Below are positions 11,586-16,527 of a stretch of 64,000 bases of DNA, piece by piece. How positions within the stretch are numbered: the first letter of the stretch is position 1; every line of letters starts with the position of its first letter. The position numbers were made by a program, and so were the translations under genes. The stretch comes from Tomitella gaofuii. GTDB taxonomy: Bacteria > Actinomycetota > Actinomycetes > Mycobacteriales > Mycobacteriaceae. Location of the stretch: assembly GCF_014126825.1 (NCBI RefSeq), contig NZ_CP059900.1, forward strand, positions 3,052,954 through 3,116,953, in the 5' to 3' direction. The notes beneath the pieces were generated by a model. The model was not told the origin of the DNA, made no database searches, and worked only from the letters and a program-made list of their open reading frames with translations.

Positions 11586-12407
11586 TCACACCCGGCGGGT
11601 GTCGCGACGGAACAAGTACGCAGCGCCCACGATGAACACCGCGGCCCACACCACCAGGTTCAGCACCGCCAAGGCAATACTCGCGCCGTCGCCGCCCGTC
11701 AACGGGTAGCGGGCCAGCTCGGCCAGGCCGTAGGTGGGCATGAACGCGGCGATCGTGCCGAACACCCCGCCGTCGATCGGCACGAACAGCCCACCGGCGA
11801 ACGAGAGCAGCGCCAGGCCCGGGCCCAGTATCTGCATGACGTTCTCCGACGGAAGCAGATAGCCCATGAACAGGCCGAAGGCGGCGAACACCAGCGATCC
11901 CAGCCACGCGATGAGGGGCGCGGCGATCCACACGGCGCCGGAAGCCTGAGCGCCGGTGAACGCCCCGACGATGAACACCACGACGACCGACGCCAACCCG
12001 AGCGTCATCGCCACGAGCGCCTTGGTCGCGATGTACGCCACGGGCCGCAACGGGGTCAGCCGCAGCTGGCGGCTCCACCCCAGTTCCCGCTCCACCGAGA
12101 CCATCGCCCCGCCGCTCGTCGTCGCCAGCATGGCGCCGTAGACCGCCATGCTGATGAGCACGTACATCGTCACGTTGCCGCCGCCCGGCCAGTCGTCGGG
12201 AAAGTCGGTGCTGTAACTCTGCGTCAGCCCGAAGATCAGGTAGAAAACCGGGGGCATGGCGATCGCGAAGATCAGCACGCGCCGGTTGCGCAGCAGCCGG
12301 CGCAGTTCCAGCCGCAGGAAACCGAGGCTGAATCCGCCCCGCGCGGGCACTGCCCGCGGCGCCCGGCCCGCGACCGCCGTCCCGAATGCGTGCTCTTCCG
12401 TTGTCAT
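11586..12407 (-). CDS. ABC-2 type transporter permease
   Basis: A 273-residue integral membrane protein with six predicted helices, of the ABC-2 (drug/lipid exporter) type: FLRLELRRLLRNRRVLIFA at the first helix and the SGGAMVSVERELGWSRQLRL segment before a conserved loop. Overlaps the upstream ATPase gene by 4 bases (ATGA). Together they form an exporter whose substrate is unknown; the coupled kinase and regulator suggest self-protection against a membrane-active compound. Confidence 0.87.
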   Translation of the reverse strand: MTTEEHAFGTAVAGRAPRAVPARGGFSLGFLRLELRRLLRNRRVLIFAIAMPPVFYLIFGLTQSYSTDFPDDWPGGGNVTMYVLISMAVYGAMLATTSGGAMVSVERELGWSRQLRLTPLRPVAYIATKALVAMTLGLASVVVVFIVGAFTGAQASGAVWIAAPLIAWLGSLVFAAFGLFMGYLLPSENVMQILGPGLALLSFAGGLFVPIDGGVFGTIAAFMPTYGLAELARYPLTGGDGASIALAVLNLVVWAAVFIVGAAYLFRRDTRRV

Positions 12408-13387
12408 CGCCCGCTCCTGATCGTCTGGTCGGCCCGTTCCGCTTCCGCGTCGGCGCCTGCGCTCACCGGGTCCGCGCTCCCGGGGTCCGCGCCGGTCGTC
12501 AGCGCAAGGAAGGCGTCCTCGAGGTTCCGGGACGTCACCTCCAGGTCGTGCGCCGCGGTCTGTGTGAGCAGGTACCGTGCCACCGCATCGGAGTCGGCGG
12601 TGTGCACCAGCACCTTGTCGCCCCGCAGTTCCACGTGGTCGAATCCCGGGGCGGTCGTCAGTCGTGCCGGGTCGGCGCCCGGGAGGGTGGCGGACACCGT
12701 TCTGCCCGCCGCCAGATTCTTGATCTCCGCCGCACTGCCGTCCGCGACGATCCGGCCCGCGCGGACGAGCATGATCCGGTCCGCGTAGGCGTCGGCCTCG
12801 TCGAGGTAGTGGGTGGCGAACAGCACCGTCCTGCCGCGGCGGGAGTCCTCACGCATCGCCGACCAGAAGTCGCGGCGCCCCTCGACGTCCATGCCGGTGG
12901 TCGGCTCGTCGAGCACCATCAGGTCCGGATCCGGCAGCAGCGCCATCGCAAACCGCAGCCGCTGCTGCTGCCCGCCGGAGCACTTGTGCACCGGCCTGGC
13001 GCCGATCCCGTCGATGCCGGCCCGCGCCATCACCTCGTCGACCGGGCGCGACGACGCGAAGAGCGACGCGAAAAGGTCGACGGTCTCCCGCACGGTGACG
13101 TCTCGCAGCAGGCCGCCGTTCTGCAGGACCGCGGCCACCCGCCCCGCCGCCACTGCCGCGGACGGGTCCCCGCCGAACAGCCGTACCTCTCCCGCATCGG
13201 GTGTCAGCAGGCCCAGCAGCATATCGATCGTGGTGGACTTGCCCGCCCCGTTCGGGCCGAGGAAAGCGACGATCTCGCCGGGCCGCACCGTCATGCTCAA
13301 CCCGTCCACGGCGGCCACCGGGGGCGCGCCGCGGACGGTGAATTGTTTGCGCAGATCGTGCAACTCTATTGCCGGTGCGGTGTCCAT
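12404..13387 (-). CDS. ABC transporter ATP-binding protein
   Basis: About 327 residues. Walker A FLGPNGAGKST, Q-loop in AVLQNGGLLRD, signature CSGGQQQRLRF and Walker B LMVLDEPTTGMD are all intact. A C-terminal extension of ~110 residues (AGRTVSATLPGADP onward) is typical of drug-exporter (DrrA-like) ATPases. I chose the ATG at 13385-13387 (MDTAPAIELHDLRK); an upstream in-frame start would add 11 residues. First gene of the four-gene operon. Confidence 0.88.
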   Translation of the reverse strand: MDTAPAIELHDLRKQFTVRGAPPVAAVDGLSMTVRPGEIVAFLGPNGAGKSTTIDMLLGLLTPDAGEVRLFGGDPSAAVAAGRVAAVLQNGGLLRDVTVRETVDLFASLFASSRPVDEVMARAGIDGIGARPVHKCSGGQQQRLRFAMALLPDPDLMVLDEPTTGMDVEGRRDFWSAMREDSRRGRTVLFATHYLDEADAYADRIMLVRAGRIVADGSAAEIKNLAAGRTVSATLPGADPARLTTAPGFDHVELRGDKVLVHTADSDAVARYLLTQTAAHDLEVTSRNLEDAFLALTTGADPGSADPVSAGADAEAERADQTIRSGR

Positions 13388-13446
13388 GTTCCGATCATGC
13401 CGCCCGCGCCCGGCGGACACCCCGTCCGTCGGTCACGGATCAGGCG

Positions 13447-13551: not shown

Positions 13552-14301
13552 ATGACGCTTCCCAGCGAACCCCTGCCCCGCACCCGCCGGCCGCGCAATC
13601 CGCTCTCGGCGCTCGCCCGCCGCCTGGGCCGGCACGAGTGGTTGATGCGGCTGGCGCCGGCGATCATCCTGGTCGAGTCGTTCCTGCGCCGCTGGAGCGG
13701 AAACCGGATGAGCCTCGTGGGCATCGCGGGACTGCCGTCGGTGCAGATCACGGTGCCGGGCAGGCGCACGGGCATCCCGCGTACGACGGCGCTGCTGGCG
13801 GTGCCGCTGGACGACGGCTTCATCGTCACCGGGTCCAATTGGGGCCGCGCCGAGGCGCCCGCCTGGGCGTGGAACGTCGGCGCTGTCGAGCATGCCGAGG
13901 TGCACGTCGGCGCGCGCGCGGTGACCATGCGGGTGCATCGCGTCCGCGAGGCCGAACGCCCGCAGTACTGGGCGGACATCGTGCACTATTGGCCCGGCTA
14001 TGCGATGGAGCAGCGGCTCGCGCCGGACCGGCTGTTCCCGATGTTCCACCTGCGTCAGTGTGGCGGTACCGCGCCGCCGGGCCCGGCGACGCACGGCGCC
14101 GCCCCCGCCGACGACGAAGCGGCGGGGGCGGCGGCCGGACGGCGCGGAAGCGGCCGGCCTGACACGCGGACGCGCTGCGCGGTCAGCTCAGCCCGGAGAT
14201 CGAGTCGAACAACCCGGAGCTGCCCAAGCCGGAGCTGCCCAGCCCGAGATCGGTGCTGCCGAGCCCCGACTGCGCGAGCGCGGTGCTGCTGCCGGCGCTG
14301 A
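13552..14301 (+). CDS. Deazaflavin (F420)-dependent nitroreductase/quinone reductase family protein with abnormal C-terminus
   Basis: Residues ~40-168 match the DDN/FGD nitroreductase family (split beta-barrel): LPSVQITVPGRRTGIPRTTA, then GGFIV-like GFIVTGSNWGRAEAPAW, NVGAVEHAEVHVGARA and the C-terminal YWPGYAMEQRLAPDRLFPMF. Members reduce quinones or nitro compounds with F420H2. Family proteins end just after the FxxFHLR-like strand (here near 14055); this frame instead runs on ~80 residues of Ala/Arg/Ser-rich sequence, across a strong hairpin at 14098-14132 and antisense to a small-peptide gene. A lost stop or frameshift near 14050 is likely. ATG with GAAGG 6 bases upstream. Confidence 0.75.
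   Translation: MTLPSEPLPRTRRPRNPLSALARRLGRHEWLMRLAPAIILVESFLRRWSGNRMSLVGIAGLPSVQITVPGRRTGIPRTTALLAVPLDDGFIVTGSNWGRAEAPAWAWNVGAVEHAEVHVGARAVTMRVHRVREAERPQYWADIVHYWPGYAMEQRLAPDRLFPMFHLRQCGGTAPPGPATHGAAPADDEAAGAAAGRRGSGRPDTRTRCAVSSARRSSRTTRSCPSRSCPARDRCCRAPTARARCCCRR
14098..14132. terminator. Perfect 12-bp GC-rich hairpin between convergent genes
   Basis: GCCGCCCCCGCC (14098-14109) pairs with GGCGGGGGCGGC (14121-14132), 11-base loop. It lies just past the conserved end of the nitroreductase-family protein and past the stop of the leftward peptide genes, where a bidirectional terminator is expected. Confidence 0.5.
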
Positions 14302-14362
14302 AGAGTTGGAAGATCACGTTGATGGTGACCGGCGTGTCCCCCGAGACGACGTTGTTGGGCAC
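14183..14362 (-). CDS. Small acidic hydrophobic peptide, third of three tandem paralogues (59 aa)
   Basis: GTG at 14360-14362 preceded by GCAGGA; stop TGA at 14183-14185. The peptide starts MPNNVVSGDTPVTINVIFQL and continues FSAGSSTALAQ, then a Gly/Ser/Leu-rich tail with repeats of the type LGSSG, ending LFDSISGLS. It contains no Lys or Arg, only three Asp. Its first 29 residues align without gaps with the two upstream small genes, sharing an (I/V/L)xxQLF(N/S)(A/M)GSS core with Q-L-F at positions 19-21. No signal peptide. It lies antisense to the odd 3' extension of the nitroreductase-family frame. I do not recognise the family; size, acidity and lack of signal recall PorA/PorH-type peptides of Corynebacterium. 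Confidence 0.6.
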   Translation of the reverse strand: MPNNVVSGDTPVTINVIFQLFSAGSSTALAQSGLGSTDLGLGSSGLGSSGLFDSISGLS

Positions 14363-14425
14363 GATGTCCTGCTTTCTTGTGGTGTGACTGGTGGTGCAGC
14401 GGGGACCGGGCGCCGTTCCGGGACT

Positions 14426-14449
14426 CCGGCGGCGGCCCGGGCCGGGGCC
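14426..14449. repeat. GC-rich inverted repeat after the second small-peptide gene
   Basis: Within this stretch CCGGGCC and GGCCCGG face each other across two bases, just downstream (leftward) of the TAA at 14458-14460. A similar hairpin follows the first peptide gene, so partial termination or RNA stabilisation between the cistrons is possible. Confidence 0.35.
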
Positions 14450-14457
14450 CGGCAGCC

Positions 14458-14616
14458 TTAGACGAGGCCCGCCGGGGTGACGCCGTCGACCGGGCCGGTG
14501 TCTCCCGGCGTCGTCGCGGCGTTGCCGTTGCCCACCGAGCTGCTTCCCATGTTGAACAGCTGAAGGATGACGTTCGAGACCGCGGCGATCGCGCCGCTGG
14601 TAGGGCCGTTGATCAC
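14458..14616 (-). CDS. Small acidic hydrophobic peptide, second of three tandem paralogues (52 aa)
   Basis: GTG at 14614-14616 with AGGAG five bases upstream, a strong ribosome site; stop TAA at 14458-14460. Starts MINGPTSGAIAAVSNVILQL then FNMGSSSVGNGNAATT and a Pro/Gly/Asp tail ending TPAGLV. No basic residue, two Asp. Ungapped similarity to both neighbours over the first 29 residues, with the QLFNMGSS core. Unknown function. Confidence 0.65.
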   Translation of the reverse strand: MINGPTSGAIAAVSNVILQLFNMGSSSVGNGNAATTPGDTGPVDGVTPAGLV

Positions 14617-14710
14617 GGATACTCCTGAACTGTGTGAGGCGGACGCCGGGCCGGGCGGGCGGTCGTCGGAGAACTGCGAATCCGGCGACGACGCGCTGCC
14701 CCGGCCCGGC

Positions 14711-14729
14711 GCTTCCGCTCGGGAGCGGA
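14711..14729. repeat. Hairpin directly after the first small-peptide gene
   Basis: CCGCT and AGCGG pair around a CGGG loop, beginning 3-5 bases beyond the TGA at 14732-14734 in the direction of transcription. Confidence 0.4.
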
Positions 14730-14731
14730 GG

Positions 14732-14851
14732 TCAGCTGGCGAACAGGCCTCCGCCGTCCTGCGAACCCGTTCCACTGCTGCCGGCGTTGAAGAGCTGGAG
14801 CAGGGTGTCGAGCATGACGGCGATGACGCCGTTGTTCTGGCCGTTGTTCAC
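14732..14851 (-). CDS. Small acidic hydrophobic peptide, first of three tandem paralogues (39 aa)
   Basis: GTG at 14849-14851 preceded by AAAGG (7 bases); stop TGA at 14732-14734. Starts MNNGQNNGVIAVMLDTLLQL then FNAGSSGTGSQDGGGLFAS. No basic residue, two Asp. It is the first of three same-strand paralogues spaced by 115 and 95 bases. A possible promoter lies upstream on this strand (TTACGC at 14927-14932, 18-base spacer, TAGAAC at 14903-14908). Conservation of the QLFNAGSS core between the three, each with its own ribosome site and GTG start, is the main evidence that they are genes. Confidence 0.6.
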   Translation of the reverse strand: MNNGQNNGVIAVMLDTLLQLFNAGSSGTGSQDGGGLFAS

Positions 14852-15225
14852 GTTGTTGCCTTTCGTAGCGGAAATGTGTCGTGGTGCTTGGCACCGCGGT
14901 CAGTTCTATCCGCCCGCCCGGCCGCAGCGTAAGCCCCACGGACGCTCGTTCAGATATCTCTTAAAACACGATGTGACGGCTCACAGCAGGGCTTGCTCGT
15001 CCGACGCGGCGGTGCATATGCAAGGACGAGAACACGTTCTGGCCATCAGGACGTACGTCCTATACAATGGACTGGACATTGTGATGTGAGTCACTTCTCG
15101 TAACGTTCGCGCAACAGGGCACGATGCGCCCCGTCCGGGCCGCAGCAAGGCCGTCCCCGGAGCCGGGCGCGGCCCGGTGCCGCCGTCACGGAAGCCTCAC
15201 GGACTACCGACCACGGGGGGTCGAG
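14852..15225. other. Divergent regulatory region between the small-peptide cluster and the PucR-type gene
   Basis: Contains no gene that I can support. It is richer in A/T than its surroundings and carries the weak leftward promoter for the peptide genes (14903-14932) and a better rightward promoter with palindromes (15040-15081). The ~150 bases before the PucR start would be an untranslated leader. Confidence 0.5.
15040..15068 (+). promoter_or_regulatory. Promoter for the PucR-type gene with palindromic operator in the spacer
   Basis: TGGCCA (15040-15045) and TACAAT (15063-15068) are 17 bases apart, 4/6 and 5/6 matches to the consensus hexamers. The perfect 14-bp palindrome AGGACGTACGTCCT (15048-15061) fills the spacer, and a second dyad CAATG/CATTG (15065-15081) overlaps the start region. 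A repressor on the palindrome would block polymerase; autoregulation by the PucR-type protein is a reasonable guess. Confidence 0.55.
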
Positions 15226-16527
15226 ATGACACGAACCGCAATGGACCGCGGCCGCACCATGATGCTGAACGGCACGCCCGCCTCGCATGCCCTGGCGGAT
15301 TCCACCGCCCTCGCCGAGGAGGTTCTGCAGCACCACGCGGCCACCAGCACCGACTACCGCCTTTACCGGATGGCGGACGTGCACACGGACATCGTCCGCT
15401 CGCTCGCCGCCGGCTTCCGCCTGGCCGCGCGCCTGCTGGACGGCGGCCCGCTGCCGACGGAGGACGAGCTCTCCGGGATCCTCACGTTGATCGCGGAGAA
15501 GGCGTTGGTGGGCGTCCCCCTCAGCGCCATGATGGCGCTGACCGACGAGACCGTCGGCAAGCTGCGCGCCACCGTCCTCGCCCCGGCGCACGCGAGCGAC
15601 AACGAGGACCTGCGCGAGATCAACGACCGCATTTTCGCGTTCGCCCAGCACATCCACACGACGATCCCGATCTGCTACGTCAACGCCGCACGCCGCCCCG
15701 GAGGCCCCGGCACGGCGTCATCGCTCGCGGAGGCCTTGCTGGCGGGACGGGCGCCGACGGGGGACGTCCCCCGCGGCTACCTGGTGGTGCGGCTGGTGGT
15801 GGATCCGTGGTCTTCGGCCGACCCCGGCCTGCCCGCCGCGACCGGGCCGGCGCGCACGCGCGTGAACAGCACCCGGACGGTCCCGCCGCATCTCGCGATC
15901 AAGGCCGGTCACGACCTCGACGAGGCCGGCCGCCAGCTCAGCGCCGCATTCCCCGGCACGCTCATCGCGCCCGCGCCGCACCGGGGGCTGCTTCTCGCGC
16001 AGGCGCCGGTGGAGGCGCTGCGCGAGGCACTGCGCGAGATCGGCACGGTCCTGGGCGCGGAGATCACCGCGGTGACCGACACTGTGGCGACGGCCCAGAT
16101 CCCCCGCGCGGCGGAGGACACCCGGGAGCTCGCGCGGATCGTCACCCGCCTGCGCTACCCGGCCGGCGTCTACACGTTCGGCGACCTCGCGGTGGAGTAC
16201 CAGCTCACCCGCCCGGGTCCGGGTCGCGACCGGCTCGCAGCGGCGCTCGACCCGCTCACCGCCAATGCGGGGCTGATCGAGACGCTCGGCGTGCACATCG
16301 GCAACAACCTGGACCGGAGGCGCACCGCCACCGCTCTGGGCCTGCACCCGAACACCGTCGACCATCGGCTCAAGCGCATCGCCAAGCTCACCGGGCACGA
16401 CCCGACGCGACCGCACGGCCTGCGGCACCTGCACGCTGCCACCGTGATCGACAGGTTCCTGCGCGCACCGATGCCCCGCGCCGCCCACCTGGAACAGGCG
16501 GGCGGCACCCGCTTCAGCAGCCGATGA
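15226..16527 (+). CDS. PucR-family (CdaR-like) transcriptional regulator
   Basis: About 433 residues. The C-terminal ~60 residues carry the PucR-type helix-turn-helix: [20 protein letters not shown] then [20 protein letters not shown]. The central part (about 190-330) resembles the GGDEF-like linker of this family, and the N-terminal ~150 residues are helical and may bind a ligand. I chose the ATG at 15226 (GGGGGG five to ten bases upstream) instead of an earlier in-frame ATG. The 3' end overlaps the convergent glyS by 14 bases. Target unknown; the divergent small-peptide cluster is the obvious candidate. Confidence 0.82.

Follow-up and report, generated by a model that had tools for sequence, protein, structure and literature searches.

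Short helical peptides that carry mycolic acid and lack signal peptides have been described from the mycomembrane of Corynebacterium (PMC12632848; this and the other papers cited here are represented by excerpts). In C. glutamicum they include PorA, PorH and ProtX, and PorH needs PorA to assemble at the surface, a ring of five copies of each being predicted (PMC12632848). In an AlphaFold model of PorA, Ser15 occupies a short inter-helix linker (PMC11927696). ProtX (Cg2875) is mycoloylated, of unknown function, with an unmodified Na adduct of 3897 Da (PMC5310785), and is linked to the cell wall (PMC12632848). The route by which such peptides traverse the inner membrane has yet to be worked out (PMC12632848). 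Here, we examine three tandem genes for peptides of 39, 52 and 59 residues in a stretch of 64,000 nucleotides from Tomitella gaofuii (the window; NCBI RefSeq assembly GCF_014126825.1, contig NZ_CP059900.1, positions 3,052,954 to 3,116,953). These genes are conserved in Tomitella and Rhodococcus beside a gene for a PucR-type regulator, and their products may be mycomembrane peptides of a comparable kind.

A preliminary description of this DNA had likened the peptides to PorA/PorH while noting that the sequences differ. As an analogy the likeness stands: PorA and PorH of C. glutamicum, PorACj (40 residues) and PorACur (37 residues) belong to the same size class and are signal-less, alpha-helical and poor in charges (PMC12632848, PMC11927696, PMC5944148, PMC3792995). 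PorA and PorH are encoded side by side in a host with mycolic acids, and the acylated serine of PorA, in its short inter-helix linker (PMC11927696), recalls the small-residue AGS[ST] turn of the peptides. Like the PorA/PorH type, the peptides are shorter than 70 residues, tandemly encoded and, judged by eye, signal-less, with an amphipathic helix in peptides 1 and 2 only. In sequence no relationship to PorH was detected: no NCBIfam family was matched at E 1 and the porH_2 model was not reached. The PorA/PorH genes lie between the groEL2 and polyphosphate kinase genes (PMC5944148), whereas the peptide genes adjoin a PucR gene, and their further neighbours are glyS plus a gene for an F420H2-type reductase, a phosphoenolpyruvate (PEP) carboxylase gene or a Glu/Leu-type dehydrogenase gene. 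The set has three to four members, unlike PorA/PorH, and PorACur has one lysine (PMC5944148), whereas peptides 1–3 have none. ProtX is close to peptide 1 in mass (3897 Da for the Na adduct against 3857 Da computed), a likeness by mass and description only; it is acylated at its penultimate residue, Ser37 (PMC5310785), whereas the candidate serines of the peptides lie in the AGSS turn and/or the tail. By the tests run, the peptides are not members of PorA/PorH, though they may work like them.

Three conserved small genes beside a PucR-type regulator

All three genes lie on the minus strand and start with GTG: gene 1 at 14732–14851, gene 2 at 14458–14616 and gene 3 at 14183–14362. Each is preceded by a Shine-Dalgarno-like site, read from the sequence, namely AAAGG at 14859–14863, AGGAG at 14622–14626 and AGGA at 14367–14370, each with a conserved counterpart in orthologues. 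The N-terminal halves align without gaps, with Q-L-F at positions 19–21 and G-S-S at 24–26 in all three peptides. Frames, starts, ribosome sites and alignment thus agree with the preliminary description, as does the absence of lysine and arginine, to which histidine can be added. Its term “acidic” is true in a mild sense, with only two, two and three acidic residues in peptides 1, 2 and 3. Their computed unmodified masses, Met included, are 3857.2, 4899.4 and 5690.2 Da. Lysine, arginine and histidine are absent from all 42 peptides of the triplet (three in each of 14 genomes). Given the composition of neighbouring proteins, a single frame of such length would be free of lysine and arginine with a chance of 0.0014 to 0.014; since this is not very rare, the case is carried by conservation.

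The triplet was found in four of the five Tomitella genomes searched, which include T. biformata and T. cavernea; G001, the Tomitella genome that gave no match, is 81% complete. Of 28 Rhodococcus genomes, 10 carried it, among them R. erythropolis, R. qingshengii and R. globerulus; when only the 24 genomes with completeness of 90% or more and contamination of 5% or less are counted, the number is again 10. In a sample of 401 genomes from the family, 21 matched at E 0.05: these same four Tomitella and ten Rhodococcus, each matching all three peptides (one Rhodococcus has a further, fourth, weak match), and seven other genomes that matched weakly. Strong matches are thus confined to two of the 31 genera sampled in the family. 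In the order-wide sample of 298 genomes, the only match beyond the genome of the window itself was a weak one (2.7e-4) inside a 646-codon frame. We took the weak matches beyond the two genera as chance (E 0.02–0.97; the seven genomes at E 1.1e-4 to 0.05; and the 2.7e-4 match); most lie in long frames, with a few in shorter ones (32–190 codons). Peptide 3 alone, searched against the genus Tomitella, gave two further weak matches (E 0.37 and 0.88).

Gene order 1-2-3 and similar ribosome sites are kept in all 14 loci. In T. biformata and the ten Rhodococcus, the start codon of genes 1 and 2 is ATG instead of GTG. The pooled ratio of nonsynonymous to synonymous substitution rates (dN/dS, Nei-Gojobori) for peptides 1, 2 and 3 is 0.07, 0.28 and 0.08 among three Tomitella, and 0.25, 0.25 and 0.09 among T. 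biformata and the ten Rhodococcus; the pairs are non-independent, so these values are summaries rather than tests. From this comparison of sequences, purifying selection is acting on all three frames, and loss of the frames in relatives or stop codons in orthologous DNA, which the preliminary description had named as possible objections, were not what we found. Because the triplet is kept in two genera, is linked to PucR in 14 of 14 loci and has dN/dS of 0.07–0.28, the comparison indicates that the three small frames are real genes.

The peptides appear to be undescribed, as had been suggested, within the libraries and samples searched. At E 1 no Pfam family matched peptides 1–3, PF09203 (MspA) included, and in the PDB there was no relative, the single match (E 0.71) being taken as chance. 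Peptide 3, the only query used against the plasmid and phage collections, had no match there. Nor are the peptides described in the titles and abstract openings of the literature searched, which consisted of openly licensed papers and is weak evidence of absence.

The regulator gene stands opposite the peptide genes, as had been reported, at 15226–16527 on the plus strand (PF13556, E 1.4e-16; start assigned from sequence). Between them lies a divergent intergenic region of 374 bases (14852–15225) with a GC content of 63%, against 72% for the window, which is well conserved in two close relatives. This promoter region had been called palindrome-rich; we report one 14-base palindrome, AGGACGTACGTCCT, at 15048–15061, which differs at one or two positions in each of the aligned relatives and is a candidate site for the regulator. 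All 14 loci have a PucR gene adjoining the peptides. When 26 PucR sequences are placed in a tree, the 14 linked ones form one clade apart from 12 unlinked ones of related genomes (support 100/99), these 12 being drawn from 26 unlinked PucR loci. We also scanned 30 PucR loci (~1.5 kb on each side, less at contig ends) for open reading frames of 28–70 residues with at most one lysine or arginine and a Shine-Dalgarno-like site. The four peptide loci gave the peptides, the fourth peptide of T. biformata (see below) and two 28-residue frames on the opposite strand, with peptide 3 of T. biformata escaping owing to the ribosome-site filter; the other 26, unlinked loci gave one frame in total, unlike these peptides. 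PucR probably switches the adjacent peptide operon.

The PucR of T. biformata is 76–85% identical to Rhodococcus PucRs and 38–41% identical to those of the three other Tomitella, and it groups with the Rhodococcus PucRs at 99/99, its branch position within the group not being fixed by the tree. Since its glyS is Tomitella-like (89% identical to that of the window) while its PucR is Rhodococcus-like, the simplest reading of the sequences is that peptides and PucR moved as a unit between T. biformata and Rhodococcus. In T. biformata the cassette occupies the same site, between the F420H2-type reductase gene and glyS, with PucR and peptides co-directional. In Rhodococcus the neighbours vary; in the three of ten loci covered by our annotation they are PEP carboxylase (L060, L063) and a Glu/Leu-type dehydrogenase (L066). 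On the other side of the window's peptide genes, an F420H(2)-dependent quinone reductase-like gene (PF04075) occupies 13552–14301 on the plus strand; the listed frame extends into the region of peptide 3, and relatives match only about its first 170 residues.

In 11 of the 14 loci, those of T. biformata and the ten Rhodococcus, genes 2 and 3 are separated by a fourth small gene (37–47 residues, with GSLxIDF), whose pooled dN/dS is 0.36. It is at L021:4399-4542 with equivalents in L060–L069, and is shortened to 37 residues in five Rhodococcus loci. Lysine, arginine or histidine is present in eight of the 11 fourth peptides. No such gene was seen in the remaining three Tomitella, and the gap between genes 2 and 3 in the window is 95 bases.

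Hairpins had been described after the first two genes, a remark that holds only in part. After gene 1 of the window there is a short inverted repeat (14714–14729, minus strand) whose letters recur in two relatives (G003, G004), but minimum-energy folds do not use it; the stretch behind gene 2 is not conserved in G003. The position of the repeat matches that of a strong covarying hairpin found after gene 1 in T. biformata and the ten Rhodococcus (11 loci, nine distinct sequences). It has 16 consensus pairs, with changes on both sides that preserve the pair in seven of them and 97.2% of cells pairing. None of 500 shuffles reached its covariation score, and all slid versions scored lower; eight of 500 reached its count of double-change pairs and 159 of 500 its count of pair types. 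No run of T was seen behind this hairpin, and it may be a processing or stabilising element favouring gene 1.

A helix with a polar stripe and a possible place in the mycomembrane

When the 42 peptides are aligned on Q19, the residues Q19, G24 and S25 are invariant, position 15 is always N, D or E, and position 22 is always N or S. F21 is present in 37 of 42 peptides, A23 in 39 and serine or threonine at position 26 in 41. Each peptide consists of a hydrophobic helix (about residues 9–22) with polar side chains at 15, 19 (Q) and 22, followed by an A-G-S-[S/T] turn and a flexible tail free of basic residues. The tail is Gly/Ser in peptide 1, and in peptide 3 it is conserved and rich in GSS/GLGS. 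In peptide 1 the amphipathicity of residues 9–22 exceeds that of 95% of shuffles in all 14 genomes, and the same holds for peptide 2. With nine sequences as input, AlphaFold2 predicts a helix over residues 3–28 of peptide 1, with a mean predicted local distance difference test score (pLDDT) of 71 and about 90 over residues 11–20; for peptide 3 it gives, with low confidence, a helix at 12–22, a break at the AGSS turn and a second helix at 27–33. GSLGS-type repeats much like the peptide 3 tail were also seen in the N-terminal linker of a probably secreted DUF4185 protein (PF13810, E 2.7e-111) near one Rhodococcus cassette (L066:9528-10880).

The explanation we favour, tentatively and at somewhat short of even probability, is by analogy with the corynebacterial peptides: these would be alpha-helical peptides of the mycomembrane that lack signal sequences, whose AGS[ST] serines are probably O-mycoloylated and which probably assemble into hetero-oligomeric channels. 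The locus would be an operon that supplies the mycolic-acid outer membrane with small envelope peptides, and PucR would probably switch it. The products would first be exported. A mycoloyltransferase would then acylate one or more serines of the AGSS turn and/or the tail, and the lipid would anchor the peptide in the mycomembrane. There, the helices of peptides 1, 2 and 3 may pack through their polar stripe into hetero-oligomers, which would most likely be water-filled channels. PF00756 (Esterase), which we take to be the Pfam family that holds mycoloyltransferases, is matched seven times at E 1e-20 or better in the window's genome. Mapped O-mycoloylation sites are serines, less often threonines, in flexible segments where they are surrounded by Ser, Gly and Ala (PMC11066868). 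The AGS[ST] turn and the Ser/Gly tails fit this pattern, with S25, invariant in all 42 peptides, as a serine compatible with the modification at the level of the motif.

Several observations weigh against this explanation. Peptide 3 is amphipathic by the same shuffle test in none of 14 genomes, its AlphaFold2 model is of low confidence (mean pLDDT 55), and the helix core is short, at about 14–16 residues. O-mycoloylation has no strict consensus (PMC11066868), so the AGSS motif does not demonstrate it. The porH_2 model NF033938 passed its cut-off in none of six genomes, the best match (E 0.66) being in a 295-codon frame; in a control set one of 14 genomes passed the cut-off, and C. glutamicum is among six that match. 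A switch by PucR suggests conditional expression, unlike that of a housekeeping porin. Two further points, on MspA-type porins, are taken up below, and the proposal as a whole rests on sequence and models.

The same sequence facts would serve structural or adhesive peptides resembling ProtX, lipidated but not pore-forming, which tie the mycomembrane to the wall or alter the surface. ProtX, mycoloylated, without known function (PMC5310785) and cell-wall linked (PMC12632848), provides the precedent; peptide 3 is Ser/Gly-rich and fails the amphipathicity test, the fourth peptide is Ser/Gly-rich too, and canonical porins coexist with the peptides in Rhodococcus. The conserved polar positions 15, 19 and 22 in the helix, however, would point to helix–helix assembly over simple anchoring, and we consider such a role unlikely, though the most serious of the alternatives. 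A step less probable, and doubtful in our view, are secreted peptides that act outside the cell, as membrane-active or surfactant-like agents or as signals. Shortness, lack of signal peptides, the amphipathicity of peptides 1 and 2, separate ribosome sites and the link to a regulator would all suit them. No exporter is common to the loci examined, however, and the neighbours differ between loci: they include glyS, the F420H2-type reductase, PEP carboxylase, the Glu/Leu-type dehydrogenase and a major facilitator superfamily transporter. The window does have a frame for the ATPase of an ATP-binding cassette transporter at 12404–13420, named from motifs, but this is unmatched in the G002 and G003 stretches examined. 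A set of three to four peptides conserved together, tails included, would better fit a multi-subunit assembly than a signal. For the secreted signals or toxins that the preliminary description had offered as an alternative, this analysis found no positive evidence.

That the N-terminal halves are alike across the three peptides while their tails differ recalls ribosomally made precursors, in which a conserved leader precedes a variable tail that is modified and cleaved. Such precursors are very improbable here: no modification enzyme or peptidase was seen among ten proteins of four relative loci and two window proteins scanned, orthologues of peptide 3 share a strongly conserved tail (dN/dS 0.08–0.09), there is no cysteine, and what is conserved is a hydrophobic helix. 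A hydrophobic core within a very small protein would also suit type I toxins or small proteins of the inner membrane. Inner-membrane helices usually have a positive flank, whereas the 42 peptides have no basic residue at all, and their Gly/Ser-rich tails and their place in a three- to four-gene operon with a co-conserved regulator also make this origin highly unlikely.

MspA-type porins in peptide-bearing genomes

Porins of the MspA family in Mycobacterium, Nocardia and Rhodococcus are about 20 kDa and have a signal peptide (PMC9233653), and they would share mycomembrane channel function with the peptides only if the latter do form pores. Their Pfam family, PF09203, was sought in 28 genomes, five Tomitella and 23 of the 28 Rhodococcus (all except G289, G301, G307, G313 and G319). 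Three peptide-bearing Tomitella had no match. The fourth, the window's genome, had a single one (G000:C1:153954-154451, L112; E 4.6e-50), a protein without similarity to solved MspA whose divergent class also occurs in some relatives of R. erythropolis; the peptide-free Tomitella G001 has one PF09203 match too. The peptide-bearing Tomitella are thereby left without a canonical MspA-type channel, which suits the proposed pore. Two results go the other way: the window's genome does keep this one family member, and a canonical MspA-like protein is present in 10 of 10 peptide-bearing Rhodococcus, so that the peptides would not be the sole channel there. As evidence on pore formation, the distribution of MspA porins is therefore mixed.

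The canonical class (E 1.2e-22 or better against MspA, one member at 3.2e-23 against the PDB) is also present in 10 of 13 peptide-lacking Rhodococcus. We had considered that peptide-bearing Rhodococcus might lack the usual porin; this was rejected, as the absent class is a divergent, tandem-paired one and the canonical class is present. The paired class of the MspA superfamily (L149 and L161, for example), which has no detectable match to solved MspA, occurs in none of ten peptide-bearing Rhodococcus and, by partner, in 13 and 12 of 13 peptide-lacking ones, G275 being the genome without the second partner. This contrast is clear in the sample but may reflect shared descent and few evolutionary events, and we draw no conclusion from it. 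The class counts for some genomes may be low, as fragmentary or extra matches at G145 C1, G236 C200, G275 C14, C18 and C49, and G218 C5 near 3.239 Mb were left out. At least one of the 93 classified frames is an overlapping ORF in the wrong frame (L136 m2127).

What the operon may mean for Tomitella and Rhodococcus

A bolder version of the channel proposal, which we regard as possible at best, is that the peptides form a class of alpha-helical porins in the mycomembrane that stands apart and arose independently. This would be a lipidated channel of three or four subunits found beyond Corynebacterium and passed between genera as a cassette together with its own PucR switch, and it would be the main channel of Tomitella and the long-known small channel of the R. 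erythropolis group. In 2000, Lichtinger, Reiss and Benz reported a channel-forming protein from R. erythropolis, said to be of about 8.4 kDa. It is small and comes from the same species group as peptide carriers, a likeness by description only, and it may prove to be among these peptides.

A conserved peptide operon that is linked to a regulator, has apparently moved between genera and lacks a Pfam or NCBIfam model matters even if its products are not pores. If the independent-class proposal is true, the solution of helical, signal-less peptides arose more than once. It would also provide a second model for the export and O-mycoloylation of such peptides, and candidate genes for the small channel of R. 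erythropolis.

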